Source: Microcaldota archaeon (GTDB taxonomy: Archaea; Micrarchaeota; Micrarchaeia; Micrarchaeales; CABMGC01). Taken from it: 42,563 nt of DNA. Position 1 is the first letter of the stretch; the number at the start of each line of letters is the position of its first letter. This document shows, in pieces, positions 216 through 22,214 of the stretch. The notes under the pieces are model-generated. The model had not been told where the DNA came from. It saw only the letters and a list, made by a program, of their open reading frames with translations, and did not search any database. The DNA lies in assembly GCA_027345185.1 (NCBI GenBank), contig DAHWIK010000049.1, positions 1 to 42,563 of the forward strand, in the 5' to 3' direction. Both the position numbers and the translations under genes were made by a program.

Positions 216-596
216 ATGGCATCGATAAACCGATACTACCTGTTGATACTGTCTTTGGTGAGCATGCTCGTTCTGCCGCTTGCAACTGCGCAGACCCCGG
301 CCACCTCGAACAACGCGGCCTCTTCAGTGATAAGCTCAAGCCTGTGCGGAATAATAACGACGATTCAGGACGTGGTCGGAGTAATAGCGCTAGCGCTCTT
401 CATACTCGGAGGCGCGTTCTATGCAGTGGCTCACATGCTCCCTGCAGCAGGAAACCTAAAAGGCAACCTTCAGGGCTGGTCATTGGGTATGATCGTCGGA
501 GGGATAGTAGGCCTCGTGATCGTAATTATTGCGCCAAGCGTAATAAGCATGATAACAAGCACGAGTTCGAACATAGGATCACTTGGCTGCACGTGA
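216..596 (+). CDS. VirB2/TedC-like two-helix pilin precursor
   Basis: A 126-residue protein with the plan of type IV secretion pilins (VirB2/TrbC, and archaeal CedA1/TedC). Residues 1-25 are a signal peptide ending in a consensus ATA signal-peptidase I site. The mature protein has a short Ser/Thr/Asn-rich N-terminus, a first hydrophobic helix (about 45-72), a short basic loop with PAAGNLKGN, and a second glycine-rich helix (about 90-113). Cys44 and Cys125 lie just outside the two helices and could form a disulphide. The start at 216 was preferred over 186 because the TATA box would place the transcript start between them and because it gives a clean signal peptide. It is followed after 24 nt by a membrane glycosyltransferase. 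The family assignment rests on architecture, not on a sequence search; another small two-helix membrane protein cannot be excluded. Confidence 0.65.
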   Translation: MASINRYYLLILSLVSMLVLPLATAQTPATSNNAASSVISSSLCGIITTIQDVVGVIALALFILGGAFYAVAHMLPAAGNLKGNLQGWSLGMIVGGIVGLVIVIIAPSVISMITSTSSNIGSLGCT

Positions 597-620
597 TACC
601 TGAGATAGCCGGGACAGGAG

Positions 621-2531
621 ATGTCTCATTCGCTTCCTGCCAAGGCCATAGCTGAAAGGCCCAGTGGAAGCGCTGGGCGCAAGCCACTGCCGCTTTACGG
701 CGCAGATCCTAGAAACCTTGCCTTATCATTCATTTTATTTCTGATAACCGTAGGCTACCTGCTTCCCGAGTACTCCGCTGCAGGTTCATGCCTTGTAATA
801 GTCTTCGCTGCACTCCTCATAATCTACACGATTGCATACGGTCTTGGCCTGCACAAGCCGGGCAGAAAAACCAGGGCTGCAACCGCAGCCTCATTCTACA
901 CATCAATACTGCTCTTCATTGTCGCCACTGCCCTTTACATAAGCCTCGGCCAGGCATCCATAGTAAACTTTTTCCAGCTCCAGTACGTTGTATCATACCT
1001 TGTGATGTTCCTGCTCCTCTTCTTCATCCTGCAGCTGTATTTCTACACCAAGGACAGGCGCATAAAGCTCTCCGTCATAGCCATAGTAGTCATACTTGTA
1101 GCGATATATTTCACCCCACATTTTATAAATTACCAGACCGATGACGAGGTCGTTATAGGCTACTACGCAGTGAAGAACCTTTTCAACGGAGTAAATCCGT
1201 ATACGGTGTCCATATCCAATGTCCTGTACAACCTGCACAGCTCAATCGGCACGAGTCTGACAATAACCACCAACGGAAGCATAATAGGCGTTCTCGACTA
1301 TCCGGCACTGTACTTCCTGGTGCAGGTGCCGTTTTACCTTCTGCTGAACCCGCTGCCGCAGGACCTTACGGGCAGCTTCATACACGCCGAGGGATTTGTC
1401 TTCGTGCTTCTCTTCCTCCTCGCGTACATGCTGATCGCAGCGGATAGGACAAGCACAGGCTCCAAATACCTGGTCTACATAGCGCTCGGATTATTCACCC
1501 TATACCTATCATCGATGATAACCTTCCTGATGCTTGCGCTCGTGCTCATCCTGTATTCGGGGATAGGGAAGAGGCATTCATGGCTCTTCCTCGGCCTGGC
1601 GCTCTCGCTCCAAGAGCAGCTCTGGATAATAGTGCTCCTATTTATAGCATACACGTTCAACACTTACGGCGCGAAGAGGGGGCTCAGGGAGCTTGCAGGG
1701 GCCCTTGCCGTATTCATGATAATAAACAGCTACTTCATAATAAGCAGCCCGTCAGGCTACCTGAACAACTTCCTGGAGATAACCTCTGCGATACAGCCAA
1801 GCGGGCTCTCCCCAATAGGATACATCATCGCAACTAGCTTCAACGTGCCTCTCCATGCCTTTACCTACATCTTCCTGGGCTCGATACTGCTGGCGCTGGT
1901 GATCTCGCTGTACGTGAATGACAGGAAGTTGATACTGCTCTTCAGCGTAATTCCATTCCTATTCCTAGGGCATGCTCTCCAGATCTACTACCTGCTCCCA
2001 ATAGTCGCGTTCGTCCTGGTTGCTGACGTCAAGGTAAAGGAGAGTGCGGGCAACTGGCTGAGAACCATGATTGCAGGGTCGCAAGCCGCAAGATGCGCCT
2101 ATGCATCTTTACTTCTAGTCTCGCTGCTCCTTATCCTTGCAGTATCTGTCTATGCGCACAACTCATATTCCTCAGGGTTCGGGATGTCAGCAGACAACAT
2201 ATCCATAACAAGGTCAAACAGCACCACGCTCACATACCACGCATATCTCTCCTACAATTACAGGAACGCAACGCCAATGTACCTGCTGATAGAGATAGAT
2301 GCGAACAGCACAGGCAAGTACTTTGGGGTCTTCAACTACAGCATAATAAAGGGCAGCCAGATATGCGGATTCCCGTGCTCAGTGAACCCAAACAGGATAA
2401 TCCTGCCAAGCACGGGAAGCTACAGCCTCACTGCAACTATTCCTGCGAACATACATACTCCGGCATACATATCGGCAGTGCTATCGAACAACGAATACTA
2501 TTTCAGGACGCAGCCGCTCCTGTACCGCTAG
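621..2531 (+). CDS. GT-C-type polytopic membrane glycosyltransferase
   Basis: A 636-residue protein with roughly 11-13 hydrophobic segments up to about residue 525, then a beta-rich outside domain of about 110 residues with several NxS/T sites and a CGFPC cysteine pair. After the first helices a large loop carries a TDDEVVIGYYA stretch (about 173-183), then FNGVNPYT and DYPALYFLVQ (about 225-235). Acidic residues in the first outer loop followed by a Y-x-A-x-x-L-x-x-G-x-N-P-Y pattern are typical of lipid-phosphate-sugar-dependent GT-C enzymes (GT39/GT83/GT87-like). It would transfer a sugar from a polyprenyl-phosphate donor on the outer membrane face. It is 24 nt downstream of the pilin gene and probably co-transcribed, so pilin or surface-protein glycosylation is a reasonable inference. 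Donor and acceptor cannot be read from the sequence. Confidence 0.7.
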   Translation: MSHSLPAKAIAERPSGSAGRKPLPLYGADPRNLALSFILFLITVGYLLPEYSAAGSCLVIVFAALLIIYTIAYGLGLHKPGRKTRAATAASFYTSILLFIVATALYISLGQASIVNFFQLQYVVSYLVMFLLLFFILQLYFYTKDRRIKLSVIAIVVILVAIYFTPHFINYQTDDEVVIGYYAVKNLFNGVNPYTVSISNVLYNLHSSIGTSLTITTNGSIIGVLDYPALYFLVQVPFYLLLNPLPQDLTGSFIHAEGFVFVLLFLLAYMLIAADRTSTGSKYLVYIALGLFTLYLSSMITFLMLALVLILYSGIGKRHSWLFLGLALSLQEQLWIIVLLFIAYTFNTYGAKRGLRELAGALAVFMIINSYFIISSPSGYLNNFLEITSAIQPSGLSPIGYIIATSFNVPLHAFTYIFLGSILLALVISLYVNDRKLILLFSVIPFLFLGHALQIYYLLPIVAFVLVADVKVKESAGNWLRTMIAGSQAARCAYASLLLVSLLLILAVSVYAHNSYSSGFGMSADNISITRSNSTTLTYHAYLSYNYRNATPMYLLIEIDANSTGKYFGVFNYSIIKGSQICGFPCSVNPNRIILPSTGSYSLTATIPANIHTPAYISAVLSNNEYYFRTQPLLYR

Positions 2532-2566: not shown

Positions 2567-2989
2567 TCAGGCGTGATCTTTGACGATCTTCCTTACCTCC
2601 CTGCCGAAGTCCCTCAGGTCGCCCATGTCATGCGACTGCTCGAAGACCTCCTTGTCATAATTCGAGTCTATGTATGCATGGACAAGGCTGTTCCTAAGCT
2701 TTCTCCTGTTGTCTATCTTCTCGACAAGGTTCTTGCCCAGTCTGTCTTTTAATCCGTCCAAAACCGATTCATCGTCACCGGAGAGCTTCAGCTCCAGACC
2801 CTTGTACAGCAGTGCGGATATGTCCAGCTCAAGGTCGCTTATCAGCTGGAGGTGCCTCTCAACCGCGCTCTTCAAAATGGAATCTGATTTAAGGTATGAC
2901 TTCAAATCCTTTGGCGCGAATCCCTCAAGCCTCTCCTTGTACTGCTCCAGATCGGTGAGCTTTCTGTTTATCCTTTCCGCGTCAAGCAT
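2567..2989 (-). CDS. hepT: HepT-like HEPN ribonuclease toxin
   Basis: A 140-residue all-helical protein of the HepT (DUF86-type) HEPN family. The catalytic Rx4HxY motif is intact as RNSLVHAY (Arg99, His104, Tyr106). In characterised pairs this protein is an RNA-cleaving toxin, and the motif tyrosine is AMPylated by the partner nucleotidyltransferase to silence it. Its gene starts 4 nt after the mntA-like gene, the usual antitoxin-toxin arrangement. The N-terminal part (MLDAERINRKLTDLEQYKERL) and length fit the family. The role in plasmid maintenance or phage defence is known for the family but untested here. Confidence 0.85.
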   Translation of the reverse strand: MLDAERINRKLTDLEQYKERLEGFAPKDLKSYLKSDSILKSAVERHLQLISDLELDISALLYKGLELKLSGDDESVLDGLKDRLGKNLVEKIDNRRKLRNSLVHAYIDSNYDKEVFEQSHDMGDLRDFGREVRKIVKDHA

Positions 2990-2993
2990 GTAA

Positions 2994-3509
2994 TCACTTG
3001 TTCAACATCAGATTAAACCTGTGCCTGAATTCAGACCAATGGTCCATTACGCCAAGGCTGTAATCATAAAGTCTTGGCCTGTCCCTTGCATAGAGCACTT
3101 CCGCTTCATTCAGCACCCTGCTCTGCAGGTCTATGGGCATGTCGTTCAGTATGGAAACGTCAAAAAGCCTCTCCTCCTCGCTGAGCGATGCGCCTGCATA
3201 CCGCGCAAGCTCCTTGAAATGGTCTGCGCCTTCGCCTAGCAGTATGGCAAGGTCAACATCTCCATAATCAGGCATCTTCCGAGCGTAGCTTCCGAAAAGC
3301 AGCACTGCAAGTACATTTTCATCGCTTCTTGCTTCATCCAAGATGCGTTTAATCCCCTTCTTTATCATGCTCCTCTTTGCAAGCCACTGGACTATTGCCT
3401 CTTCAACAGCACTGCTTATGGATCCCCTCCCGTATCCGAAGCGCTCCATAGCCTCCTCCCTGAGCCTGCTGTCGACTGCATCGTCTATGTAGATTTTGGT
3501 TTCTGCCAT
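2994..3509 (-). CDS. mntA: RHH-MNT fusion nucleotidyltransferase antitoxin (MntA-like)
   Basis: A 171-residue protein with two parts. Residues about 1-45 read as a ribbon-helix-helix-like DNA-binding unit: a short strand ETKIYIDDAV, then two helices ending EEAIVQWLAKR. Residues about 50-171 are a minimal nucleotidyltransferase, with the Pol-beta signature GSYAR (Gly73-Ser74) followed by DVDLAIL, where Asp84 and Asp86 would bind metal. MntA enzymes AMPylate HepT and neutralise it. The usual MntA is about 100-140 residues and lacks a DNA-binding head, so the extension is the odd feature; it could let the antitoxin repress its own promoter, where a 6-bp inverted repeat overlaps the TATA box. The RHH assignment is by eye. 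Confidence 0.78.
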   Translation of the reverse strand: MAETKIYIDDAVDSRLREEAMERFGYGRGSISSAVEEAIVQWLAKRSMIKKGIKRILDEARSDENVLAVLLFGSYARKMPDYGDVDLAILLGEGADHFKELARYAGASLSEEERLFDVSILNDMPIDLQSRVLNEAEVLYARDRPRLYDYSLGVMDHWSEFRHRFNLMLNK

Positions 3510-4013: not shown

Positions 4014-4748
4014 TTGGCCGGAGTGCTGCAAGAGTCGTATGAAGTATACCGCGAGAAGCTGAGTCTCGCATTGATATTCTCCATACCATTCATAATAGCA
4101 TTCGCGATACCGCTTCTTGCCCCACTTCCTACCTACATCACAGCAGGTGCGATATTCCTCAGGAGTGCAAGCATATTCGTGAACGGAAACATAAGCCTTC
4201 TCAGTCTTGTGGTCATAACCATATCAACAATCTTTTCTCTTCTCTTCCTGAGCTTCGCATTCGTTCTCATAAGCCTGCTTGTCAAGTCAAAAAGGACCCA
4301 TTCTAAGGTCGGATTGAGGGCATTCAAGAACATAGAGACATACATAGGCAGGGTATTCGCGATATTTCTGTTATATACAATTGCAATAGTATTCGCCAAC
4401 ATCCTAGGATATTTCATAGGCATATCAGCGCTTCTTACCGGGATTGTCGGGTTCTTCCTGTTCGCCATCCTATTCTATGCGCCAAGCGCCGTTGTTGTTG
4501 ATGACAAGAAGCTCTGGAGGGCGGTCAGGGACAGCGCAAGGCTTGTGGTACATGAGCCGCAGTACTTCCTGATGTGGCTAGTGCTCATAACTGTGATCAT
4601 ATCTGTGGTCGACGCAGTATGCATATTCGTCTTCAGCAACTGGGCAGGATACATAGTGCTTGTGCTGAACTCACTCTTCATAGTGCCGTATTTCGTCATA
4701 TTCCAGGCCGAGGCGTACATGAACAGGTTCAGGCTGTTAAGGCACTGA
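4014..4748 (+). CDS. Six-helix conserved archaeal-type membrane protein
   Basis: A 244-residue integral membrane protein from a TTG start, with about six hydrophobic segments (about 17-36, 40-55, 60-85, 112-160 as a pair, 180-200, 205-232). Between the helix pairs are two short charged loops, VKSKRTHSKVGLRAFKNIE and VVDDKKLWRAVRDSARLVVHEPQ. The second resembles the loop 'PA-V-V-D-x-K-x-x-x-A-x-R-x-S' seen in a widespread archaeal/bacterial membrane family of unknown function (YciC/DUF7847-like). I do not recognise a reaction. A T-rich TATA-like stretch ends about 30 nt upstream, fitting a near-leaderless message. It precedes the VirB6-like array on the same strand but is separated from it by 187 nt with a separate promoter, so membership in that system is uncertain. 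Confidence 0.65.
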   Translation: MAGVLQESYEVYREKLSLALIFSIPFIIAFAIPLLAPLPTYITAGAIFLRSASIFVNGNISLLSLVVITISTIFSLLFLSFAFVLISLLVKSKRTHSKVGLRAFKNIETYIGRVFAIFLLYTIAIVFANILGYFIGISALLTGIVGFFLFAILFYAPSAVVVDDKKLWRAVRDSARLVVHEPQYFLMWLVLITVIISVVDAVCIFVFSNWAGYIVLVLNSLFIVPYFVIFQAEAYMNRFRLLRH

Positions 4749-4935: not shown

Positions 4936-6189
4936 ATGCGCATGAAGGCTTTGGGGCTGTTGGGTTTTCTCCTACTCTTATTACCGAATATAATAAATGC
5001 AAGTGCACCGTTGCCTGCACCGTTGCCTCCGGTATGCCAACCAGGCTTCAATTGGGGCAGCATATCAATTTCAAGCAGCGGAACAGGGCTGGAACTTGCG
5101 CTTTTGGCCCTTACCATATCCTTCGATGTCGTTGCCATAGCGTTTGCATTGAGCAGGCTGTTCCCGAACACTGGCATAAGGAACTGGCTGCAGACCGAAT
5201 ACTGGGAGATAGCAAAGACCGCTATAATAATAGTGGTCATATTCGCAGGAATAACATTCATAGGCAATCTGTCCTATCTGCTTGTGCCAAGTGCAGTATC
5301 TGGACCTGTCACGCTTAATAACAATGTGGCCGACCTAACTCCTCTCATACATGGCGCCGAAGGATACCTGTGCAACGTAAATTCCCAATTGGTCAATACC
5401 TGGGAGGAGTTCGGCATAATTTCCGCAGGTACCGGTTTCTGGTCAACGCTTCAGGTAGGATTCTACATTCCAATCCCTGCGCTAGGCCCATACCTTGCAT
5501 TTTACGACGGGATAGACTTCCTTCCATTTGCTAACTGGCTGCTCCAGACAGGGAACTTCTTCATCGCCCCATACGGGTCGATAATAAATGACCTCATCAA
5601 CTTCGTATTGTTCCCGTTCTCCTCAATTACGCTCGGACTGATAACCACGCTTCCCTCCCTGGCCTATGTCGGATTGACCTTCTTCATACCTCTGGGACTG
5701 GTATTCAGGGCGTTTCCGTTCATAAGGGGCATAGGCGGAACAATAATAGCAATAGGCCTGGCTCTGTGCCTGGTTCTGCCCTCGGTTTTTATACTGTTTA
5801 ACTATGAGGTCACCTCTGTATTATCGAACACCCTTCCCATCATCCAGCCCGCTCCTTCGACTGTAAACCTCGTCGTATCAAGCTGCACAGGAGTCCTGCC
5901 AAGCATAATCGGAGATGTTGCATGTACCGGGATAAACCTGTTGCTTAGCTCGATTAATTCCGTGGCAGGATTCACGCAATCAATATGGTATGCCCTGCCG
6001 GTCTTCCAGACAAATGCCATATACACCTACATGGACAGGATAATGAGATACGGCATTTACATCATAATGCAGCTGCTCCTATTCGTGATCGACCTGATGA
6101 TAATGTATCCCCTTGTTGATGGACTGGCAAAGTCAATGGGAGGCACAATCAGGCTATCAATAGGAGGAAAGCTGAGACTTGCAAGCTGA
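4936..6189 (+). CDS. VirB6/CedA-like polytopic membrane protein, array member 1
   Basis: A 417-residue protein with a signal peptide (about 1-22), a short proline-rich outside segment (PLPAPLPP), and about eight membrane segments. It shows the two marks found in all six consecutive proteins. After the first mature helix comes an amphipathic stretch SRLFPNTGIRNWLQTEYWE leading into the next helix. In the middle comes GLVFRAFPFIRGIGG (Arg258), ending in a glycine pair that opens a long helix with a proline (LCLVLPSVF). Topology, length and operon setting resemble VirB6/TrbL/CedA channel proteins of type IV secretion and archaeal DNA-import machines. Cysteines 35, 130, 312 and 325 lie in or near outside loops. 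First gene of a run in which the next starts 5 nt downstream. Remote assignment; a structure comparison would decide. Confidence 0.6.
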   Translation: MRMKALGLLGFLLLLLPNIINASAPLPAPLPPVCQPGFNWGSISISSSGTGLELALLALTISFDVVAIAFALSRLFPNTGIRNWLQTEYWEIAKTAIIIVVIFAGITFIGNLSYLLVPSAVSGPVTLNNNVADLTPLIHGAEGYLCNVNSQLVNTWEEFGIISAGTGFWSTLQVGFYIPIPALGPYLAFYDGIDFLPFANWLLQTGNFFIAPYGSIINDLINFVLFPFSSITLGLITTLPSLAYVGLTFFIPLGLVFRAFPFIRGIGGTIIAIGLALCLVLPSVFILFNYEVTSVLSNTLPIIQPAPSTVNLVVSSCTGVLPSIIGDVACTGINLLLSSINSVAGFTQSIWYALPVFQTNAIYTYMDRIMRYGIYIIMQLLLFVIDLMIMYPLVDGLAKSMGGTIRLSIGGKLRLAS

Positions 6190-6194
6190 TCAAC

Positions 6195-7403
6195 ATGTTA
6201 TCCATCCTACTATCCACTACTGGCACAATCCCATCAACATGCGTATTCGGAGGCACTCCGACGGCAACCGGATCCCTAAATACCGGAGGCTGGATACAGA
6301 TAAACCTGCTTGTCATACTGCTTTCATTCTCCGTATGCGCAATGCTTTACTCGCTAAGCGGAGTCTTCCCTGCATCGATGCGGGAGAAGATGAAGGGCGC
6401 AGCAAGGTACGAATCACTCCAGGGCATAATAAGCATAATGATAATACTAATACTCATAGCATTCTCATCTGCAACATGCCAGATAGGGCAGGCGATTGTC
6501 ACCTCTTCGACCCAGATAACCCAGACCACATACCAGAACCCCCTCCAGTACTCGGAGGCCTACATAGGCAACCTCATGTTCACAAAAGGACTTGGGTTAT
6601 TCACACAGATATATTCAGAGTCGGTCCTGATCGCAGTAAGCGCAAACATCGCAAGTACTGTCGAGGAGTTCCTTACGGAGCTTACAATAAACCCGTACCT
6701 GTCCCTTTCATTCAGTCCAGGCATGATCAATGCGCTTTTCGGATTCAGCGGAGCCCTTGCTGCTTCATTCCTGCCGCTAATAATAGTGGCATTCGGAGTG
6801 CTATTCATAATATACCTTATCTTGCCGCTTATAGCCTCTCTGGCCCTGACAGTAATCGTTCCCCTTGCGCTGGTGATGCGTTCAATCCCTTTTGCCGGCC
6901 CGAAGCTCAGGGAATCCTCTGATACATTCCTCTCGCTTGCCATAGGTTTCTACTTCATATTGCCACTTGCACTGCTTATGAACAGCTACATAGTCACATG
7001 GATCTACTGCACAGGCCCAACGACTTTATGCAATCCGTATCAGCAATACACTTCAGTCTACCAGCTTGGCTCAATACCCACAAGTGCATTATTTAGCCAG
7101 TCTGCGCAGGGCATATCTTCTGGCGGACCGCTAAGCGCCCTTGCCCTTCCGACATCGTTCTTTTCATCCTCAGTATCGAACCAAGGGGGCTTCTTTTCTG
7201 TGCTGAGCCAGATCCTGCAGATCATGTTCGAGATACCAAAGTTCATAATTGCTGACGGGCTCAAGACTGCAGAGTACGTGTTTGAAGGCGTATTTCTTGT
7301 GGGGCTTGACCTTGCCATAACCCTTGCGTTTTCGCAGGGCCTTACAAAAGGGCTTAATTCAGTTGGCAAGGTAATAGGAGTTGGACCATTTTGGAGCGGA
7401 TAG
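6195..7403 (+). CDS. VirB6/CedA-like polytopic membrane protein, array member 2
   Basis: A 402-residue membrane protein starting at an ATG preceded by a GCTGAT ribosome site that overlaps the end of member 1. It lacks a clear cleavable signal peptide; a short cysteine-containing outside N-terminus leads to the first helix. The shared amphipathic stretch is SGVFPASMREKMKGAARYES. The central motif is degenerate: LVMRSIPFAGPKLRES (Arg229), without the glycine pair present in the others. A long outside loop (about 270-330) contains ITCT-type cysteines and many Ser/Gly. The C-terminus ends in two hydrophobic segments and a GLTKGLNSVGK loop. Probably part of the same membrane complex as its neighbours, either as a subunit of a hetero-oligomeric channel or as a functional variant; this cannot be told from sequence. 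Confidence 0.6.
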   Translation: MLSILLSTTGTIPSTCVFGGTPTATGSLNTGGWIQINLLVILLSFSVCAMLYSLSGVFPASMREKMKGAARYESLQGIISIMIILILIAFSSATCQIGQAIVTSSTQITQTTYQNPLQYSEAYIGNLMFTKGLGLFTQIYSESVLIAVSANIASTVEEFLTELTINPYLSLSFSPGMINALFGFSGALAASFLPLIIVAFGVLFIIYLILPLIASLALTVIVPLALVMRSIPFAGPKLRESSDTFLSLAIGFYFILPLALLMNSYIVTWIYCTGPTTLCNPYQQYTSVYQLGSIPTSALFSQSAQGISSGGPLSALALPTSFFSSSVSNQGGFFSVLSQILQIMFEIPKFIIADGLKTAEYVFEGVFLVGLDLAITLAFSQGLTKGLNSVGKVIGVGPFWSG

Positions 7404-7406
7404 TGC

Positions 7407-9101
7407 ATGAGATACAAAACAATATACCTTATTTTTGCAGTGTCTCTATTTTCGCTAGCCTATTCCGCCGCTCCTACAATAGTTGCTCCATACTCAGCAT
7501 TCACAGATTGGGCTCCGATCATAGTAGTTGCAGCCCTTCTCAGCGCCATGCTTGCCGGAGTCTACTATATGATCGGCTACCTGCTAAACAATCCAAGGAT
7601 AAGGGCCTCCGCCATATCCGAACTGGAGCAGGCTGCAGGGAGCGTGCTGCTAGTAATCATAATAATAGGGGTGCTCTACATGCTAGGCACAACCGACTTC
7701 AGCTTCGGCTCATTCCTCGGATCCAGCGGAGTTTCATCCATATCAAATATATGCAGCACCTATCTCAATCCGCCTAATCTCAATCCGCCTAGCGGCAACG
7801 CGTTTCCAGCATATCTTGAAAGCAACTTTTATGATCCACATTCCACTCCGGCCAACCTCCCCGAGCCGACCACAGCAGTCTGCCAGTACCTCATAGGCGC
7901 ACCGCAAAACAGGGTTAATCCAGCAGATCCGATAACCTCCAAGATAGATTACGGCCTTGCAGCAACATACGTGATAATAGCCAACATGACAAACCAGTCG
8001 GTGTACGAACTAAATGCACTGTACAATCTTGACAGCTTAATCTTCTTCCTCAGGAACCTGAATCCAGACGTGGGGTTCTGCGCGCCTGCCACATGCGTTG
8101 ACCCTGCAGCCCCGTCCGGAGTAAATCTGCAGCTTAGCTACAAGCCATACCAGGGATACGTATTCCAGAGGGCGATAATGCCTTCAATAGTGACGCAGGG
8201 TACCCTCACACTATACATGGAGACACTCGAGCTGGTAGTGATAATAATGCTGCTCATATTCTGGCCGTATATGCTTGGAATAGGGATAGTCCTAAGGACC
8301 ATCCCGTTCACCAGAAGGGCAGGGGGTTTCATAATTGCAGCCACCATAGTCGGAGTAATAATACTGCCTACAGTATTTCTGCTAGAATACAGCGCCCTGA
8401 ATAATCTCCAATCGCAGCCTTTTGTCGGAGCAAGTCAGATACCAGGCATAGCGCTTTGCGGCTTCAGTCCGGTTCCATCAAGCACACCTAACAACGTGCT
8501 ATGGTGCTACACAACAGCAAACACGCTCCAGACCAGCTACATATACAAGGGTACGCAGCCGGCAAGGTATCCTGCCACGATCCCGGCCTGCACAGGAGCA
8601 CTTTCAGCCTCAAATGGTGAGTACCCATCCGGAGAAAACCCATATAGCAACATTCCATCCTGCTTCGCTAAAAGGGATGTGAGCTTCTATTCCTATCCAG
8701 ACGCAGTAGGGATAATAAGCTTATATACCTGCTATCCAAATGATCCCACCGGAACCATAATTCCTACTGAATTCGATATAATATCAAGTGCGCTGGTCCA
8801 AAGCGCATTGCTTCCAGTCACAGGCCTTCTAGCCTTAATCTCAAATTCCGGAAACCTGCAGGCAAATCCTCTGGTGGATTTCTTCCTAGGGCAGTCTGTG
8901 GGGGGCAGCTGCCTGTCAAAAGTAGGGCCGCACAATGTTGCCGCTGCACTGACATCACTGGTAAACATGTACGGACTTATAACAGTCTCAGCGTTCATAA
9001 TACCTATACTCAATTTCTTGATCCTGTTATCTGCCATGACTGGCATATCTTCGCTTATAGGCGGAGAAACCACAATAATCGGCCTGAGCAGGTTCATATG
9101 A
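7407..9101 (+). CDS. VirB6/CedA-like polytopic membrane protein, array member 3 (largest)
   Basis: At 564 residues this is the longest array member. It has a signal peptide (about 1-20), a helix, then the shared stretch IGYLLNNPRIRASAISELEQ followed by the next helix. The central motif is IVLRTIPFTRRAGG (Arg297), in best consensus form. The extra length comes from two outside loops: about 110-260, starting with a tandem 15-nt duplication (LNPPNLNPPSG, near 7764-7793), and about 335-450, rich in Pro, Ser, Asn and Cys. The many cysteines and absence of charged repeats suggest disulphide-stabilised surface loops. It starts 3 nt after member 2. If these proteins form a channel, this one most likely contributes the outside cap; that is inference. 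Confidence 0.6.
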   Translation: MRYKTIYLIFAVSLFSLAYSAAPTIVAPYSAFTDWAPIIVVAALLSAMLAGVYYMIGYLLNNPRIRASAISELEQAAGSVLLVIIIIGVLYMLGTTDFSFGSFLGSSGVSSISNICSTYLNPPNLNPPSGNAFPAYLESNFYDPHSTPANLPEPTTAVCQYLIGAPQNRVNPADPITSKIDYGLAATYVIIANMTNQSVYELNALYNLDSLIFFLRNLNPDVGFCAPATCVDPAAPSGVNLQLSYKPYQGYVFQRAIMPSIVTQGTLTLYMETLELVVIIMLLIFWPYMLGIGIVLRTIPFTRRAGGFIIAATIVGVIILPTVFLLEYSALNNLQSQPFVGASQIPGIALCGFSPVPSSTPNNVLWCYTTANTLQTSYIYKGTQPARYPATIPACTGALSASNGEYPSGENPYSNIPSCFAKRDVSFYSYPDAVGIISLYTCYPNDPTGTIIPTEFDIISSALVQSALLPVTGLLALISNSGNLQANPLVDFFLGQSVGGSCLSKVGPHNVAAALTSLVNMYGLITVSAFIIPILNFLILLSAMTGISSLIGGETTIIGLSRFI

Positions 9102-11443: not shown

Positions 11444-11451
11444 GTGCTAAT

Positions 11452-14935: not shown

Positions 14936-15778
14936 GTGGTATGTTTGAATAGCGGAAGTCAGAGGCTTGTCTTTGCAGTAATCGCAGGAATCGGACTAGT
15001 CTGTGCAATCATAATGGGGCTTGTTCCAGCATCACTATCTCCGCTTGCACTAGTGCTTGCAGTGGTTGCACTTGTGGCCACGCTCGTGGCATATGCAACA
15101 AAGGACTATTTCTTCCTGTTCGACTCCATGCTGCACATGAAGAACATGACTGCAGTAATAGATGGCAATGACCCGTTCTACATGGCACCGAGCGGCGATG
15201 CGATTGTGGTGAGGCGTGGCGAGGAGGTCTATGCCACTGCGTTCGTAAAGGTGCCTATCTATAGCTCTTCCACTGAGATGGCTGACGAAGACAGATACAA
15301 TTTCTCGCTGCTTTTTGCACGCATGATAAGCATAAGCAAGACCCCAATGCGCGTATCATCGCAGCTTCATCCGATAAACAAGGACGATTACATAGCCAGG
15401 ATAAATGCCAAGCTTAACGAGTCCGAAGTAAGGTACAACACGCTTCAGGGAGACAAGACTGCTGACCCAAAGGCACTGGACAGGGTAAAGGGCGAAGTTA
15501 CCATGTGGAGAAACATGCTCGACAACGTCTCAAGGAGCAACTCACAGGAGCTTGAGGTCTATGCGAGCATCACTGCAATAGGCGGCTCTGAGGAAGAGGC
15601 GATAAACCTTGTTGCAATAAAGGCAGATGAAATAGCCGCCGGAATAAGCGCAACTCTTGGAATAACTGCCACAATTGTGACAGGGGACGAGATGCTCGTG
15701 TTCATAGAGCCCGACTACATGATACCTCCTACAACCATAAGCGAAGTAATGAAGTACAAGGGAATGCAAACAACGTGA
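14936..15778 (+). CDS. Membrane protein resembling the N-terminal part of VirB4/TraC, copy 1
   Basis: A 280-residue protein read from a GTG that coincides with the predicted transcript start (TTG at 14945 is an alternative). Two membrane helices (about 10-29 and 33-54) form an N-terminal hairpin. The cytosolic part begins with strand-rich sequence (DAIVVRRGEEVYATAFVKV), continues with PMRVSSQLHPINKDDYIARI, a charged helical hairpin (about 158-200), and ELEVYASITAIGGSEEEAIN. This order, with a 'begin-strand, Ile-x-Pro, long helical pair, ferredoxin-like strand-helix' plan, is that of the domain in front of the ATPase in VirB4/TraC proteins. Here it is a separate polypeptide; the ATPase gene is two genes downstream. 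It would anchor the ATPase at the membrane and link it to the channel. Confidence 0.6.
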   Translation: MVCLNSGSQRLVFAVIAGIGLVCAIIMGLVPASLSPLALVLAVVALVATLVAYATKDYFFLFDSMLHMKNMTAVIDGNDPFYMAPSGDAIVVRRGEEVYATAFVKVPIYSSSTEMADEDRYNFSLLFARMISISKTPMRVSSQLHPINKDDYIARINAKLNESEVRYNTLQGDKTADPKALDRVKGEVTMWRNMLDNVSRSNSQELEVYASITAIGGSEEEAINLVAIKADEIAAGISATLGITATIVTGDEMLVFIEPDYMIPPTTISEVMKYKGMQTT

Positions 15779-15782
15779 TCTG

Positions 15783-16604
15783 ATGGATGAAGACACGGTT
15801 ATCTATCTTTCAATCTCCATAATTATAATAGTCGTGGTAATTGCATCATCTGCGAAGTTCGGACTGGTAGGCACGTTAATGCTGATATTGTCTATTGTTG
15901 CGATCTTCCTGCTCCTTCTCCTTGCATTTGCTGATTTCCTAATAGTGCCCCTGTTCACAAAGATTCTGAACATCACCATGGTGCCTGCAAAGAACTTCAC
16001 CATAACCAGCGGACAGGATGCGGTCGTAAAATATTCCAATGGAATATATTATGCCACTGGCTACCTGACGGCAAATATCTACAACTACATCTTCGCAGCG
16101 GAGCGCGAGACAGAGGAGGGGCCAGAGCTCACTGCTGCCCCTGACAAGTGGGAAAAGGCGATAATGAACATACACTTCCCATTCAAGTTCAATATGATCG
16201 TGGCTTCCGAGGACATACAGAGATACAGGGACGAGCTCGAGACCAAGCGAGGCCTTCTAGAGTTCCAGTACTCAAAGGAGATGCAGTCAACAAATCCCAA
16301 TCCGATGGGCCTTGAGAATATGCAGAGGCAGATAAATGTCCTGCAGACAAGGATAGACAGGATAGGCGAGGGCGAGAAGCCTGTAAACAGCATAATGTAC
16401 GTAGAGTCCACGGCAGTGGGCGTCAGCCTCAAGGAGGCAAACGATGCGCTTGCCAACCAGCTAAGCGAACTCCAGACCATATTCAACGTATTCGACCTGA
16501 ACCTGACAAGGGTCATAGGCCGCGAGCTCTACCATCTCTTCAAGTTCAATTACCTTATACCCGGACTGAAAGAGCTCACATCCACCTTCGACGTGCAAAA
16601 GTGA
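15783..16604 (+). CDS. Membrane protein resembling the N-terminal part of VirB4/TraC, copy 2
   Basis: A 273-residue paralogue of the preceding protein, starting 4 nt after it with GTGATC as ribosome site. It has the same plan: two helices (about 7-22 and 27-55), a strand segment AVVKYSNGIYYATGYLTANI aligned with the corresponding part of copy 1, a helical hairpin (about 140-200, ERQ-rich), and a last domain VESTAVGVSLKEANDALANQ ending in a tyrosine-Leu/Met-Ile-Pro element (NYLIP here, DYMIP in copy 1). Two copies suggest a heteromeric ring or stacked layers under the ATPase. Their tandem arrangement directly before the ATPase supports the split-VirB4 reading. Confidence 0.6.
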   Translation: MDEDTVIYLSISIIIIVVVIASSAKFGLVGTLMLILSIVAIFLLLLLAFADFLIVPLFTKILNITMVPAKNFTITSGQDAVVKYSNGIYYATGYLTANIYNYIFAAERETEEGPELTAAPDKWEKAIMNIHFPFKFNMIVASEDIQRYRDELETKRGLLEFQYSKEMQSTNPNPMGLENMQRQINVLQTRIDRIGEGEKPVNSIMYVESTAVGVSLKEANDALANQLSELQTIFNVFDLNLTRVIGRELYHLFKFNYLIPGLKELTSTFDVQK

Positions 16605-16610: not shown

Positions 16611-18116
16611 ATGGGACTTCTCAAGATACAAAAAATAATGAGCAACGAGCTCGCAAAGAGGACATTCATCAGCAGGCCTCCTGAGCCTCCGTCCGACCTG
16701 CTTCTAAACGATCCCACGGATTCCATATTCATAGGGATAACCAGGAGATTCGGTGTGCCTTTCACATGGACCTTCAGCACACTTACCAATCCCCACATAT
16801 CTGTTGTGGGGATAACCGGATCAGGAAAGAGCTTCTTCGTCAAGACCTTCCTAATAAGGGCAAACTATGTCTGGGGCACAAACGCCATAATAATAGACTG
16901 GGCCGGGGAGTATAAGGGCTGGGTGAAGCAGAGCGGAGGCACAATAGTCTCATTCGGAAAGGGAGACTATCTGAACATAATGGACCTTGCAGGCACAAAG
17001 CCGATAGACAGGGTGAAGCAGATAATGAACTCGCTTGACATACTCACTGACATATCCAACTTCCCTGAACAGAGAAGGCTTACATCTGAGGCGCTTGAGC
17101 AGTCATATCTCAATGCAGGATTCATAATGTCAAGCGTGCCAGTAGGCGACAGGGATGCACCAACGCTTAAGGACGTCGCAAGGCTTCTTGAGGAGAAGAT
17201 GCAGGAAGGCACATACGAGTATCCTGCTGAGCTCGAGAACGCCATATACAGGCTAAGGCAGTTCTCAAGGGAGGGAGAGGATTATTTTGCGCAGAAGAGC
17301 ACCATTGACCTTGACAGGCTTATAACGTCAGGTCTTGTATCAATAGATCTTTCGGGTCTTCCTGACGAGAAGTTCAGGGCCCTTTGCGCACTGTTCATAC
17401 TCCAGACGCTTAAGGAGAAGATGAGGCTCGAGGGCTGGAGCGCGGCAAAGGGGCTCAAGGCGATAATAGTGCTGGACGAGGCATGGAAGGTTGCAAGCGA
17501 CGAGAGGAGCGACGCAATAACTATAATAAGGGAGGGAAGGAAGTACCAGTTCGGGCTCATAGTGGCATCACAGAATCCCACAGATATAAACGAGGCCATA
17601 TTTTCTAACGTCGGCACAAACATAATACTCAAGATAAAATTCCAGAAGTTCATGGACTACATACAGGGATCGCTGAACTTCTCGCAGTTCATAAGGGGCG
17701 AGATAAGCAAGCTTGGAGTCGGCCAGGCCGCTGTAGACCTGTCTTTCCAGACATCCGCGCAGTTCCCCTCTACATTCATAATAAACAGGATAGTCGGCGA
17801 GGTGCCTCTTGACGTATACACAATAACCCTTGCAGATCTTCTCAACGAACCAGAGCTAAGGGACCTGTCCATACAGAAGGAATACTCTTTCGAGAAGCCG
17901 TTCCTTAGGTCAAAGTTCATAGACAACAATATAAATACAGAAGCGATAGATAAGATATTAAGCGAGCTCGACGCGAAGAACAGGATTGTCGACCTGAGGG
18001 AATTCGTCAGGATCCTGCTCGGAGAGAAGCTGCCGAAGGATTCGGTGGTCTCGCTGCTGCGGAGCAGCGGGATATCCGACTCCCTGATAACAAGGGCATT
18101 CGGATACGGGGAATAG
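16611..18116 (+). CDS. HerA/VirB4-class secretion ATPase (ATPase half only)
   Basis: A 501-residue P-loop ATPase of the HerA-FtsK/VirB4 group. Walker A is GITGSGKS (67-74), with a DWAGEY segment downstream (about 98-103, the 'D-x-x-G-E-Y' of VirB4/HerA). Walker B is IIVLDEAW with Asp289 and Glu290, and the sensor-like ASQNP is at 319-323. In full-length VirB4 the P-loop lies several hundred residues into the protein; here it begins almost at once, so the VirB4 N-terminal domain is absent and is probably supplied by the two preceding genes. Residues 442-497 form a helical tail that recurs as the separate 98-residue product of the next gene. It would power substrate movement or pilus assembly as a hexamer. 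CedB of the crenarchaeal DNA-import system is of the same class. Chromosome-partition HerA with NurA is less likely: no nurA is nearby. Confidence 0.85.
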   Translation: MGLLKIQKIMSNELAKRTFISRPPEPPSDLLLNDPTDSIFIGITRRFGVPFTWTFSTLTNPHISVVGITGSGKSFFVKTFLIRANYVWGTNAIIIDWAGEYKGWVKQSGGTIVSFGKGDYLNIMDLAGTKPIDRVKQIMNSLDILTDISNFPEQRRLTSEALEQSYLNAGFIMSSVPVGDRDAPTLKDVARLLEEKMQEGTYEYPAELENAIYRLRQFSREGEDYFAQKSTIDLDRLITSGLVSIDLSGLPDEKFRALCALFILQTLKEKMRLEGWSAAKGLKAIIVLDEAWKVASDERSDAITIIREGRKYQFGLIVASQNPTDINEAIFSNVGTNIILKIKFQKFMDYIQGSLNFSQFIRGEISKLGVGQAAVDLSFQTSAQFPSTFIINRIVGEVPLDVYTITLADLLNEPELRDLSIQKEYSFEKPFLRSKFIDNNINTEAIDKILSELDAKNRIVDLREFVRILLGEKLPKDSVVSLLRSSGISDSLITRAFGYGE

Positions 18117-18124: not shown

Positions 18125-18421
18125 TTGTCCGGAACTTTCGCAATAAACAAGATAGAACTCAAGAGGATACTCTCAAGCTTCAAGGTCAGCGACAAGAACA
18201 TAGACTCCATACTTGCGCAGCTTGACAGGATGCACAGGCATGTCAACGTAATAATGTTCACCGGCATGCTTCAGAATGTTGGACTAAAGCACAACGAGAT
18301 AATAAACATGCTGAGGAGGGCGGGCATAGACGATGTTACGATATCCAACATATTCGACGTGCTTGAGGAGGAGAAGATAAGGAACACCTTCGGCAAGATG
18401 ATAGAGCTCAAGGTCGAGTGA
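18125..18421 (+). CDS. Stand-alone paralogue of the ATPase C-terminal tail
   Basis: A 98-residue helical protein from a TTG start, 8 nt after the ATPase gene. Its residues 22-77 align without gaps to residues 442-497 of the ATPase; by eye about 18 of 56 positions are identical, including I-D-x-I-L-x-x-L-D, a Phe, and L-R-x-x-G-I-x-D. Fusion or duplication of this tail next to its parent suggests that it binds the same partner surface, for example as a regulator, adaptor, or second layer on the ATPase. No known family is recognised. The unit resembles small helix-turn-helix-like tails but no DNA-binding claim is supported. Confidence 0.65.
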   Translation: MSGTFAINKIELKRILSSFKVSDKNIDSILAQLDRMHRHVNVIMFTGMLQNVGLKHNEIINMLRRAGIDDVTISNIFDVLEEEKIRNTFGKMIELKVE

Positions 18422-18425: not shown

Positions 18426-18809
18426 ATGGCAACGTACTGCATAATCTGCGGAAAACAGAAGAACGGGATAGCGATAAAGGATGACCGCATACTGGACGCG
18501 CTGCGCTGGTTCAAGAAGAACGTGACAAGGGACGAGAAGGGAAATAAGTTGGTCGTATGCAAGGAGGACTATCCTGCCTACAGGAAGAGGAGGGACAAGT
18601 ACACATCAAGGCAGACACTATATGTAGCGATAGGCGTGATATTCATGATATTGGGCCTGGCCGCCTCGCTATCCCTGTCAACATTGGCTCTTGGAGTACT
18701 GGTAATAGCAGTCCTTTACCTGCTCTCTCTGATCAATTACATCCCTGCGCTTGACATAAAGAAGGAGGATAAGGACGTGAAAGAGGGCAAAACCAAGCAC
18801 AAACAATAA
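18426..18809 (+). CDS. Small zinc-ribbon membrane protein
   Basis: A 127-residue protein with ATG preceded by GTGATAAT. The N-terminus carries CIICGK (Cys5, Cys8) and a later VVCKEDY (about Cys45), which with another ligand could bind zinc. Two membrane helices follow (about 66-88 and 90-110), and the tail is strongly charged (KKEDKDVKEGKTKHKQ). It sits 4 nt after the previous gene in the ATPase operon and probably belongs to the same inner-membrane assembly. Function unknown. Confidence 0.6.
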   Translation: MATYCIICGKQKNGIAIKDDRILDALRWFKKNVTRDEKGNKLVVCKEDYPAYRKRRDKYTSRQTLYVAIGVIFMILGLAASLSLSTLALGVLVIAVLYLLSLINYIPALDIKKEDKDVKEGKTKHKQ

Positions 18810-18844: not shown

Positions 18845-19585
18845 TTGCCCGATACTCAACCTTCAAACGACCAAAGCTCCCTGCATCCCAAGATCGAGGA
18901 ATTCTTGATAGAGGGAAAGCTGAACGGAACGCTTGATGACATATCAGTGCTTGGCAAGCTGCCATTCTATCTTATCAGCTCCGATGCGTCAGAGTTCACA
19001 ATGGTGAAGGTGGAGAGCAGGAACATAAACAAGAAGCCATATCTCTTCCATGTAATAAAGATAAGACCGGACAACATACTTGTCACGTACTCGCTGATTC
19101 CTGACACAAGCGTAAACCTAAGGCGGGCAGATGTATTGCGGGAGGTGTCAGCCGTGCTCTCAATGATATCCGACAAGTATACGATAAACCAGGCAAAGTT
19201 CATACAGTATGTTGACTCTGTGCTGGACAGTCTGATATCAGGGCTTTCGCAGACATATACTGCCTTGTACAATCGCTACGACTCTATGCTCACTGACTAC
19301 AGGGAGCTTAAGAGGCTGAACATAGAGATATCGGCGTCTAACAGGAACCTTACTCTGCAGTCAGCGCAGCTTACAGACGAAAACAAGACCCTGAAGGAAC
19401 AGCTGTCTGCCCTGCAGAAGTACAGCGACGAGTCGTTGATGGCACTTGTGGAGGAGTGGATAACCGTGCACAACAGCGCCATAGACGTTGTTGCATTCGC
19501 AAAGGAGCGCAACCTGTCACCTACAAGAGTGGAGCAGATACTGGACAAGATGGTATCCCTTGGCTACATAGAGCTAAAGAGTTAG
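18845..19585 (+). CDS. Coiled-coil protein with C-terminal winged-helix-like domain
   Basis: A 246-residue soluble protein starting at a TTG preceded by GGTGGTA. Residues about 15-120 are a mixed alpha/beta domain (FYLISSDASEFTMVKVESRN; FHVIKIRPDNILVTYSLIPD). Residues about 135-197 are a long coiled coil (LKRLNIEISASNRNLTLQSA and on). The last 45 residues read as a winged helix (VVAFAKERNLSPTRVEQILD). It follows the ATPase operon by 35 nt, and the small gene after it begins 8 nt downstream. It may be a scaffold or a regulator of the secretion cluster. I do not recognise the family. Confidence 0.6.
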   Translation: MPDTQPSNDQSSLHPKIEEFLIEGKLNGTLDDISVLGKLPFYLISSDASEFTMVKVESRNINKKPYLFHVIKIRPDNILVTYSLIPDTSVNLRRADVLREVSAVLSMISDKYTINQAKFIQYVDSVLDSLISGLSQTYTALYNRYDSMLTDYRELKRLNIEISASNRNLTLQSAQLTDENKTLKEQLSALQKYSDESLMALVEEWITVHNSAIDVVAFAKERNLSPTRVEQILDKMVSLGYIELKS

Positions 19586-19593
19586 CTGATCGC

Positions 19594-19752
19594 ATGACAA
19601 CATACCAGGTGAACATAAACAAGAAAGTCAGCAACGTAAAGGTATACACAATAAAGAGGAGCGTGAAGGGTGACACGAACCAGATCTCCAGGATAGTGGA
19701 GTCGCTCATACAGAAATACCTATTGAAAGAGAAGGCTGAAGATAATAAATAG
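19594..19752 (+). CDS. Small basic protein, possibly ribbon-helix-helix
   Basis: A 52-residue frame with ATG at 19594, filling most of the gap between its neighbours. The layout is a strand (NVKVYTIKRSV), then a helix with regular hydrophobic spacing (NQISRIVESLIQKYLLKEK). One strand plus one or two helices is compatible with a ribbon-helix-helix DNA-binding protein, but the second helix is not obvious. It is in the same direction and spacing as the adjoining genes and so is likely real. Alternative: a small structural subunit. Confidence 0.5.
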   Translation: MTTYQVNINKKVSNVKVYTIKRSVKGDTNQISRIVESLIQKYLLKEKAEDNK

Positions 19753-19763
19753 GGGTAAGCTTG

Positions 19764-22214
19764 ATGGCAAACGCAAAAAAGCCTGCAGACCCCTTCGAGG
19801 CCAGGCAAGAATCAGGAATCAAGCGCATTAGCAAGTCGCCATTCTCAAAGCTGTTTGCCGGTCACAAGACCCTTCTGGTTGCGGCAATACTCGCTGTTGC
19901 TGTTATCCTGCTTCTCCTATCCGGGATAATACTTTATGTACAGGGTGAGGTAAGGTCGATAACCCAGATCCCCAGCAACACATTAACCGGTCCCATCTAC
20001 GGCAGCCTCGCTCTCGGCGCGCATGGGATGCTCAATTACAACTATTCTAACCAGATCTTGGGGTATGCAAGGGTTCACTACTCAGAATCAAACGCCTCAA
20101 GCTCAGAACTTTCATTGACGATATACCCATCTGACCCATCGCAGAAGACATACCTGGTTAACGTAGATGGATACTGCGTCCAGTGCTTCATAGGCTCAAG
20201 CCTGCTTTCAGACCTGAATTCATCGATGCACACATACGGCCTCCTGCTCAACAGCTCAAGCCTCAACTTCATAGACATAAACAAGCTCTCATCGCTGCCT
20301 CCTGACGTAACTGTAATAATACCATCCGGACTCATGCCTAACATACTTCTTCCAAATGTCACTTACACTGAGAAGTGCACCAACTATGAGAACGTATCTA
20401 TCCTTGACCTGCTTAACAACGGTGACACTGTGATATATGTGGGCAGAAACTTCACCAGATCCGTATCATGCACAGGCCAGATCGCTGAGAACACAAACCA
20501 GGAGATATCTGCACTGCTTCCATTCTCCAACTTCACGAGCGGCAATTTCTCAAGAGGTCCGCTCTTCTTCGATAATCCGACGTTCTTTCTGGAACCTGGA
20601 AACAGCTTCGGAAAGGTCACCTCAGCGCACATACTGAACGGCACCCTTGTAGTCATGTCAAACTATCCTTCGGTCGGATGGAACAACAGCGTCAGCGAGC
20701 TTGCATCTGACCTGTCAAGGGTGCTGGAGTCAAGGTTCTGGATCACCCCGCTAGCATACGGGTCGCTTGCATTGCCAAGCCCGGGCAATTTCACGATATT
20801 CACAACCAATAAAACGATAAATTACTACCCATCTGTATCAACCGAGGTTAACAGTTCATACGCACTGCTCAGTCTAAATCTTTCAAACCAGAACAGTTTC
20901 CAGGAATTCGAGATACCCTTCAGATATACCCTTAGGCAGAACGGGCTGATAGGCATGCCTGCCATAGTCGGCCTATCCCAATCCGTACAGATAGACAGCC
21001 AAATATTCAATGCCACAAAAAGCGAAACGGTTGTGACCTATGTGCCGATACTGAACCGTAATTTCAGCGCCGTTCAGAACCCTGTGCGAATAGGCCAGAA
21101 CGGCGCGACAGAGATTATAACATATTCGTCATTCCTGCTTCCGAGCGGATATTACATAGCGCAGCTAGCCGACCAGCAGGGATCTGTATACTCCTCTGCG
21201 CTGTTCTACGTGGCAAACTCCACGATAGATGCGACATACCTCGACTTCAGGAACTCCTCGTTCTATTTCTCGGCCTCAAGCAACGGCCAGCCGATCAGCG
21301 GAGTAGATTACCAGATAAACATAAACAACGCGTATAACAGCAGCGGCGTGGTCAACGGCGGAACGATTCATTACTTGCTTCCTCAAGGTACGTCATTGAG
21401 CTACGGAAGCGGCCATTTCACTGTCAATATAATGGGAACCAGCTACCTGTTGCCATACAAGTATCAAAATGCGAACGCGGTCAACATACCTCCCCTATAC
21501 ATAGCCTTTGCAATAGCAGCAGTAGCGATAGTGGTGTTGAACAGGGTGCTAGTGCCTCCAAACATCGATGAGTACTACATTGACGTCCCAGACATAAGGC
21601 CTGCAAAGCTCGAGCACACCAGGGAGCCTGCGGACTCGATACTTTCTGTTTTCGACAAGGTGAATTCTTTTTACCACTGGCTGTACATGCCTCTGACCGC
21701 AGAGGAGATAAAATCAGGCATAAGCACCAACATAAAGTATGGGAATACACGAATGACCATAACGATAAGGAACACCTATGCAATACTCAACTCGCTTGTG
21801 GAAAAGGGACTGGTTCAGATGGCGGACGAATATTACGCTCCAACAAAATGGATAAAGGAATCAGGGTACAGCATGGAATATCTTGTGATATACCGCAAGC
21901 TGAAGGACTACTGCATAGCGAACGCAATGCTCATGACCGAGATGGGCGCCTCAAGCAGGGCAGATGTCATAGTGACCAACAAGGGTGCCCAAAACTACGT
22001 AAAGATATACTCATCGGATACCAAGGTAAAGGACATAGAGATAAGCCAGAAGATTAGGACCTTCCTGGTCTTCCTGGATGAGGAATCAAGGCTCAGCTTC
22101 ATGGACAAGCTGTACAAATCCTACAGCAACAACGCAGAGATACTGAAGATGTCGATAAACTACGGAAATGTAAGGCTGGTAGATTCAGGCGACCTCTCGG
22201 ATCTCAAGCTCTGA
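19764..22214 (+). CDS. Large bitopic surface protein with cytosolic C-terminal domain
   Basis: An 816-residue protein, ATG at 19764 (TTG at 19761 is an alternative). A cytosolic N-terminus of 35 residues precedes a membrane helix at about 37-58. Residues about 59-575 are outside: rich in Ser, Asn, Tyr, with many NxS/T sites and beta-type repeats; Cys-x-x-Cys (YCVQC) occurs once. A second helix lies at about 577-597. The last 219 residues are cytosolic and contain a winged-helix-like stretch (LTAEEIKSGISTNIKYGNTR; LNSLVEKGLVQMADEYYAPT). The layout would let it report between the cell surface and the inside, or attach the machine to the S-layer. It is the last gene of the cluster, convergent with top6B, 2 nt between stops. 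No known family recognised. Confidence 0.6.
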   Translation: MANAKKPADPFEARQESGIKRISKSPFSKLFAGHKTLLVAAILAVAVILLLLSGIILYVQGEVRSITQIPSNTLTGPIYGSLALGAHGMLNYNYSNQILGYARVHYSESNASSSELSLTIYPSDPSQKTYLVNVDGYCVQCFIGSSLLSDLNSSMHTYGLLLNSSSLNFIDINKLSSLPPDVTVIIPSGLMPNILLPNVTYTEKCTNYENVSILDLLNNGDTVIYVGRNFTRSVSCTGQIAENTNQEISALLPFSNFTSGNFSRGPLFFDNPTFFLEPGNSFGKVTSAHILNGTLVVMSNYPSVGWNNSVSELASDLSRVLESRFWITPLAYGSLALPSPGNFTIFTTNKTINYYPSVSTEVNSSYALLSLNLSNQNSFQEFEIPFRYTLRQNGLIGMPAIVGLSQSVQIDSQIFNATKSETVVTYVPILNRNFSAVQNPVRIGQNGATEIITYSSFLLPSGYYIAQLADQQGSVYSSALFYVANSTIDATYLDFRNSSFYFSASSNGQPISGVDYQININNAYNSSGVVNGGTIHYLLPQGTSLSYGSGHFTVNIMGTSYLLPYKYQNANAVNIPPLYIAFAIAAVAIVVLNRVLVPPNIDEYYIDVPDIRPAKLEHTREPADSILSVFDKVNSFYHWLYMPLTAEEIKSGISTNIKYGNTRMTITIRNTYAILNSLVEKGLVQMADEYYAPTKWIKESGYSMEYLVIYRKLKDYCIANAMLMTEMGASSRADVIVTNKGAQNYVKIYSSDTKVKDIEISQKIRTFLVFLDEESRLSFMDKLYKSYSNNAEILKMSINYGNVRLVDSGDLSDLKL

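Follow-up and report, generated by a model that had tools for sequence, protein, structure and literature searches.

We analysed a stretch of 42,563 nucleotides from a Microcaldota archaeon (contig DAHWIK010000049.1 of assembly GCA_027345185.1; hereafter the window), which is part of a 923-kb genome with a completeness of 83%; Microcaldota is the current additional name of the Micrarchaeota, which are tiny archaea whose cultured members live on other archaea. The nearest named relatives of the window were Candidatus Micrarchaeota metagenome-assembled genomes, several of which showed ATPase identities of 81-91%. Positions 216 to 22214 hold a locus that resembles a type IV secretion machine, and the genes proposed for this machine are long open reading frames (ORFs), all located on the + strand, with a minus-strand gene pair inserted at 2567-3509. 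The components on which the interpretation is based are as follows.

216-596 (+): VirB2/TedC-type pilin, with a signal peptide ending in ATA before Q (by eye), two hydrophobic helices and Cys residues 44 and 125
4936-6189 (+): array protein A1 (mutual homology by profile, position test)
6195-7403 (+): array protein A2 (profile homology, position test; hhalign to the pilin 92.5%, P 4.8e-7)
7407-9101 (+): array protein A3, the longest on average (profile homology, position test)
9102-10322 (+): array protein A4 (profile homology; hhalign to the pilin 77%)
10319-11443 (+): array protein A5 (profile homology, position test)
11452-12549 (+): array protein A6 (profile homology, position test; AlphaFold2 model with a predicted local distance difference test score, pLDDT, of 79)
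14936-15778 (+): N1, two transmembrane (TM) helices and a VirB4 N-terminal-domain-like region; paralog of N2
15783-16604 (+): N2, two TM helices and a predicted VirB4 N-terminal-domain fold (AlphaFold2 pLDDT 78; Foldseek)
16611-18116 (+): VirB4/Ced-class ATPase core without the N-terminal domain (Walker A GITGSGKS, Walker B IIVLDEAWK)
18125-18421 (+): s98, a stand-alone copy of the ATPase C-terminal domain (profile comparison, locus survey)

The six array proteins (4936-12549) were found to be polytopic, with 6-8 TM helices each, and mutually homologous, with profile E-values of 1e-8 to 1e-70 in most pairs; some of them carry large, variable loops. We found exactly six array genes in every complete case across 15 families, even when the array was duplicated and distant from the ATPase gene, and the incomplete arrays were those interrupted by contig ends. 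In most other families, the array and the ATPase cluster lay apart, and two copies of the array were common. Counting ORFs from the matches revealed two arrays of six (6+6) in families f3, f4, f5, f6, f7, f12, f14, f16, f18, f21 and f23 and a single six-gene array in f9 and f11. Exactly six genes were also present in all 25 of the 25 arrays with DNA examined outside the first 20 regions. In a position test, one hidden Markov model was used per gene position with the tested family left out, and the two families of the home order were left out together. As evident from the results, 196 of the 210 proteins (35 arrays) best fitted their own position, against 35 expected by chance (1/6), and all arrays outside the home order read 1-2-3-4-5-6. 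Because the proteins keep to their own positions and the arrays read in this order, the array is, as judged from these profiles, a set of six ancient, ordered and non-interchangeable subfamilies. An obligate heteromer in which each subunit is used once would be the simplest mechanism for this rule of six, and we consider it probable that the six proteins form a hetero-hexamer. The class-wide, ordered six-member array and the compact four-gene cassette described below are the new and strong results of this analysis.

The conservation of the locus was compared over 26-kb regions from 20 relatives of the same family and its sister family. An earlier note made from the letters of this DNA (the sequence-only reading) had left the gene order in other Micrarchaeota to be checked; the order A1-A6, N1, N2, ATPase, s98 and s127 (a partner gene listed below) was kept in 19 of the 20 relatives, and the pilin gene lay upstream of the array in 18. 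The junctions inside the array were typically -4 to +10 nucleotides in 21-29 genomes, and such recurring tight junctions are far beyond chance. ATPase identity across the order was 61-91%. At the class level, where 215 genomes were surveyed and ATPase matches were accepted up to an E-value of 1e-40, the ATPase was present in 188 genomes and the array family in 194, and all ten listed genomes without the ATPase were also without the array (f10, f13, f15 and part of f17). The locus is thus a core machine that was lost or never present in a few families. The array was missing from f10, f13, f15, f22, f24 and part of f17, as was the ATPase in those for which it was listed, and such array-less families could be used as natural knock-outs. 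Two further arrangements were observed. In one single-contig genome (G048:C1:409800-435800; L051, L071), the ATPase cluster was kept with no array upstream, and the array genes were located elsewhere. In another genome (G033), the ATPase locus was present on two contigs, C23 (L026) and C16 (L029), with equal identity to the window, which reflects either a duplication or an assembly artefact.

The ATPase gave its best scores with the CedD (9e-23), TraC (1.6e-18) and CedB (2.5e-18) models, followed by VirB4 and HerA models. It also matched P-loop_TraG at 2.6e-14, above the cut-off of that model, and the VirB4-like structure 4ag5 at 1.7e-8, and VirB4/TraC-type matches to it were found in 4602 plasmid records. 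It fell below all equivalog cut-offs; the CedB score was ~63-66 bits, far short of the cut-off of 700, and the CedD cut-off was also missed. The missing N-terminal domain appears to be supplied to the ATPase by N1 and N2. When the predicted N2 structure was compared with 350,542 PDB chains using Foldseek, the nine best matches were all TrwK/VirB4 of R388 (E 0.007-0.19, probability 0.82-1.00), and this unanimity is telling. The N-terminal TM helices of N1 and N2 could stand in for VirB3. As a weak lead, the two proteins might represent the inner and the outer ring of VirB4 in R388; the other families, which have one N protein per ATPase and not two, speak against this. The two membrane proteins resembling the VirB4 N-terminal part and the HerA/VirB4-class ATPase of the sequence-only reading were therefore both recovered, the former by fold only.

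The window pilin alone matched TrbC/VirB2 at an E-value of 0.007, below the Pfam cut-off. Its family gave clearer results: 14 of 26 orthologs matched TrbC (best 9.7e-8), 14 of 26 matched T4SS_pilin (best 1.8e-6), and the family profile, compared with 177,635 PDB sequences, had as its best match TrwL, the VirB2 of R388 (E 0.007). These matches agree with the VirB2/TedC-like pilin that had been proposed. At least two cysteines were present in 26 of the 27 family members, usually near the mature start and near the end. A type IV pilus or archaellum was ruled out: the pilin belongs to the VirB2 type, and neither an ATPase nor a platform gene of type IV pili could be recognised in the locus. We also observed two-helix pilin-like domains, some of them repeated, inside large extracellular proteins (436-1284 residues) encoded directly upstream of the pilin gene in three loci, L046 (G040), L054 (G059) and L061 (G054); it is possible that these proteins are pilus-borne adhesins. 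Such ectodomain fusions would suit a machine that serves only as an adhesive or structural pilus, with the ATPase assembling pili and no macromolecule translocated, and bacterial systems likewise depend on VirB4 and VirB6 to assemble their pili (PMC12857230). However, an array of six different polytopic proteins goes far beyond the known needs of a pilus base, and we consider this explanation quite improbable.

A likeness was also found between the array and the pilin. With order-level alignments, the array N-terminus and most of the pilin could be aligned in a co-linear manner (hhalign 82.6%, P 1e-5), and the value was 47.7% (P 2e-4) after removal of the signal peptide. The reversed decoy gave 0.4%, other membrane families gave at most 3%, and a Sulfolobus plasmid pair in the same type of comparison gave 85.7%. 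A resemblance of the CedA N-terminus to its pilin has been reported for CedA/CedA1 (Beltran et al., PMC9905601). In Pfam and PDB profile searches, the array returned nothing informative. A P...T[RH] motif, read by eye as common to the array proteins and TrwI, is a weak lead.

In many genomes, a seventh array-like gene was found to be solitary with respect to the array; where examined, it was part of a compact pilin-A-N-ATPase cassette. This cassette was present in the genome of the window itself (L113), with proteins of 126, 342, 240 and 365 residues, and in the genomes of Mia14 (L109) and G075 (L111). In G098 (L131), the cassette together with an E817-like protein (E817 is listed below) was the only array-type locus found. 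In a phylogenetic tree, the cassette ATPases grouped with the main ATPases, apart from HerA and the Sulfolobus plasmid ATPases (support 88, long branches). The compact cassette unites the four families independently, which is separate evidence for a single machine formed by the pilin, A, N and ATPase families. This recurrence also bears on the idea that the locus is a non-type-IV membrane complex with a HerA-like ATPase, whose pilin and VirB4-domain matches arose by chance. The weak sequence scores of single window proteins would fit that idea, but three independent matches of fitting parts occur in one operon and the same four families recur in the cassette, making it very unlikely. The genome of 'Ca. 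Mancarchaeum acidiphilum' Mia14 (G042), which is co-cultured with Cuniculiplasma divulgatum (PMC5498576), contains the compact cassette as well as the complete operon. The sequence-only reading had included neither the rule of six nor the cassette nor the occurrence in Mia14. The portions of the Mia14 paper available to us name two type IV pilus systems, speculate on DNA exchange and do not describe the present locus (PMC5498576). In the open-licence literature, with subscription papers and preprints outside the search, we found no description of a type IV system in Micrarchaeota.

The sequence-only reading had also described the system as non-conjugative, without relaxase and VirD4, and this description held. 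VirD4 was found in 0 of 21 genomes and ComEC was absent from the same number, with positive controls in both cases; no relaxase was present among the proteins of the region, the whole genome not having been searched for it. None of VirB5, VirB8, VirB9, VirB10 and VirB11 was found, and viral contigs gave no match with close patterns. The locus is flanked by housekeeping genes and is core in the order, rather than patchily distributed like a mobile element. A conjugative plasmid or integrative and conjugative element was ruled out by the lack of VirD4, the lack of a relaxase in the region and the core distribution.

To place the locus, we compared its parts with those of the type IV secretion superfamily. 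It contains a VirB4-class ATPase, which is the signature subunit; a VirB2-type pilin with TrbC, T4SS_pilin and TrwL matches; and a VirB4 N-terminal domain, recognised by fold only and carried on separate proteins. Six polytopic array proteins stand in the place that would fit VirB6, but their profile and fold comparisons with VirB6 were negative. We regard a machine of this superfamily as very likely. The overall best explanation, to which we assign a probability of about 0.55, is a relaxase-less type IV secretion-derived translocator with a split VirB4 and a six-subunit base. Several results weigh against this explanation. The E-values of the N2 model were modest, the N proteins resemble VirB4 by fold only, and sequence profiles gave no match between them and VirB4. 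The ATPase tree gave no firm placement between VirB4 and HerA. Comparison of the A6 model with the PDB by Foldseek returned no significant match, and profile comparisons of the array with nine plasmid VirB6 proteins and, by hhalign, with Sulfolobus plasmid proteins were negative. The array-pilin signal dropped to 3% (P 0.014) in a larger, quick alignment, and solitary A proteins showed no hhalign signal to the pilin; for these reasons, the likeness between array and pilin is only suggestive. Of the six VirB6/CedA-like membrane proteins claimed at the outset, six mutually homologous polytopic proteins were thus confirmed, while homology to VirB6 was not, as both the profile and the fold comparisons were negative. 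With the pilin family match, the VirB4 N-domain fold match and the strong co-occurrence of the genes, the earlier proposal largely withstood the refuting conditions set for it. It is supported in part: right as to the kind of machine, a type IV secretion-derived translocator, with DNA import as a plausible function.

The remaining genes of the locus comprise core partners, accessory genes and an insert; the counts for the partner genes were taken over 41 loci unless relatives are named.

621-2531 (+): 12-TM protein adjoining the pilin, accessory; in the region of 9/20 relatives, no Pfam match
2567-3509 (-): HepT/MNT-type toxin-antitoxin pair, an insert between the pilin and array genes that is absent from all other loci among the 41
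4014-4748 (+): 7-TM conserved partner between the pilin and the array; 18/20 relatives, also family f11
12583-14850 (+): P755, with one hydrophobic stretch, a basic Gly/Arg-rich tail and an LRV/HEAT-like repeat C-terminus; genus-level accessory between A6 and N1
18426-18809 (+): s127, conserved Cys-containing cytosolic head and two TM helices, core partner; 41/41 loci
18845-19585 (+): c246, cytosolic coiled coil and C-terminal winged-helix-like domain, core partner; 38/41 loci, weak winged helix-turn-helix matches
19534-19752 (+): s72, small ORF, doubtful part; 2/41 loci
19761-22214 (+): E817, a TM helix, an extracellular domain of ~520 residues, a second TM helix and a cytosolic domain of ~220 residues, core partner; 38/41 loci

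The genes at 621-2531 and 12583-14850 are accessory and were not kept across the order. The protein encoded by the former is possibly a glycosyltransferase of surface proteins. The start of P755 looks by eye like a VirB6 C-terminal tail, and as a weak lead P755 might be such a tail in detached form. Pfam and PDB searches found no family for E817 and were uninformative for c246 beyond its weak winged-helix matches. The E817 C-terminus might be nuclease-like, although no catalytic Lys is visible, and we treat this as a weak lead.

Elsewhere in the window, a tRNA-Pro is followed by an AT-rich stretch (34690-37500; 38-42% GC compared with 48%) with ORFs of no assigned family, which is likely an island. 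One protein (27127-28602, +) is a three-domain thymidylate synthase made up of an MtrA-like, a ThyA and a DUF4346 domain. In an 884-residue protein (37783-40437, +), a B12-binding domain was the only family match, and a remnant at 40561-40953 (+) carries a TnpB/Cas12f-like zinc-finger domain (PF07282, 3e-9).

The locus is chromosomal, and as a relaxase-less translocator it would be adapted to the single-membrane archaeal envelope. Its VirB2-type pilin and its array of six ordered paralogs are well supported, as is a motor in which the membrane proteins N1 and N2 give the VirB4-type ATPase its N-terminal domain in trans. The six array proteins would join into a single hetero-hexameric base or pore on top of the hexameric ATPase; known type IV systems have six VirB4 subunits in their central ring (PMC12857230). 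The pilin would build a tube on this base, c246, s127 and E817 may act as coupling and surface-sensing parts, and the machine would most likely serve to exchange large molecules with the host or with neighbouring cells. As for the cargo, the absence of ComEC means that DNA uptake, if any, needs another channel. DNA import is our best single guess because of the analogy with Ced/Ted and because the genomes lack ComEC and VirD4, and we place it somewhat below even odds.

The main rival to DNA import is that the same machine carries protein or mixed cytoplasm and serves to inject effectors into the host cell or to dock with it, as proposed for the relaxase-less systems of Patescibacteria and nanohaloarchaea. 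The machine is near-universal and core in a host-dependent lineage without VirD4, the array loops are large and variable, and pilin domains are fused to big ectodomains in some relatives. In addition, one Patescibacteria strain cannot grow without the VirB6 and PrgI genes of its relaxase-poor type IV system (PMC12102498), and cryo-electron tomography of the Micrarchaeon ARM-1 revealed that nanotubes from the host dock on a 21-nm barrel of unidentified nature in the envelope of the symbiont (PMC11329633). Such a symbiosis gate is nonetheless rather unlikely, since no effector or coupling protein was recognised and the ATPase is closest to DNA-transfer models. DNA exchange between kin cells for repair, as by Ced in Sulfolobales, is a more doubtful use: the Ced/Ted-like logic of ATPase and pilin and the winged-helix-like cytosolic partner are consistent with it, but host dependence makes the host, rather than kin, the nearest partner. 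Going beyond the translocator itself, we tentatively suggest that an obligate hetero-hexameric gate, with six different, positionally fixed VirB6/CedA-like subunits, each occurring a single time, over a six-fold VirB4 motor, may be the standard host-interface organelle of the class, although the odds are against so broad a claim; speculatively, the six-part gate could possibly be the docking barrel of ARM-1. The gene set bears on how DPANN archaea connect to their hosts and draw material from them, and on which proteins make up the observed tubes, filaments and docking barrels. With pilin, motor and six-subunit base all encoded in the cultured Mia14 and in most of the class, this host-interface question becomes testable, and the array would illustrate, in an extreme form, the conversion of a homomeric channel into an ordered heteromer.

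Finally, we compared the locus with known systems. It resembles Ced of Sulfolobales (CedA, CedA1, CedB, CedD and CedE) in having a pilin, polytopic membrane proteins and a VirB4/HerA-class ATPase without a relaxase, and in spreading the VirB4 N-domain function over more than one protein, parts of it being found in both CedB and CedD (PMC11868833). In contrast, Ced has one or two CedA-type proteins instead of six ordered array proteins, the N-domain is fully detached from the ATPase in the present locus, and s127, c246 and E817 are not described in Ced. As the ATPase misses the CedB and CedD cut-offs, the machine lies outside Ced by the defining CedB equivalog test. The earlier assignment to a single-membrane system of the Ced/Ted kind was supported as to a type IV/Ced-like translocation machine but not as to Ced membership. 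Ted of Thermoproteales (TedA, TedB and TedC) likewise has a signal-peptide-bearing VirB2-like pilin adjoining a polytopic protein and a VirB4 ATPase, and the compact Micrarchaeota cassette is the same minimal set; TedB and TedA are single genes, whereas the main Micrarchaeota locus has the six-member array and the split motor. We know of no type IV machine that has a heteromeric base of six subunits. The VirB system of R388 shares the VirB2 pilin, the VirB4 N-domain fold and the VirB4-type ATPase, whereas no VirB5, VirB8-VirB11, VirD4 or relaxase was found for the Micrarchaeota locus, and VirB6 of R388 is the product of one gene and forms a homopentamer (PMC12857230). The rvh system of Rickettsiales likewise is a case of diverged paralogs, there of the VirB6 type, in a host-dependent lineage, and comparisons of the present array with VirB6 were negative; it has five such paralogs (PMC2653234) instead of six and retains the VirB8-11/D4 set. 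The type IV genes of Patescibacteria and the VirB4/SPEARE genes of nanohaloarchaea are similar as relaxase-poor systems of ultrasmall, host-dependent microbes. They differ in that the Patescibacteria VirB4 falls in MPF-FATA (PMC12102498), while in nanohaloarchaea the ATPases either are joined to giant adhesins or have a fused N-domain (PMC10266531).

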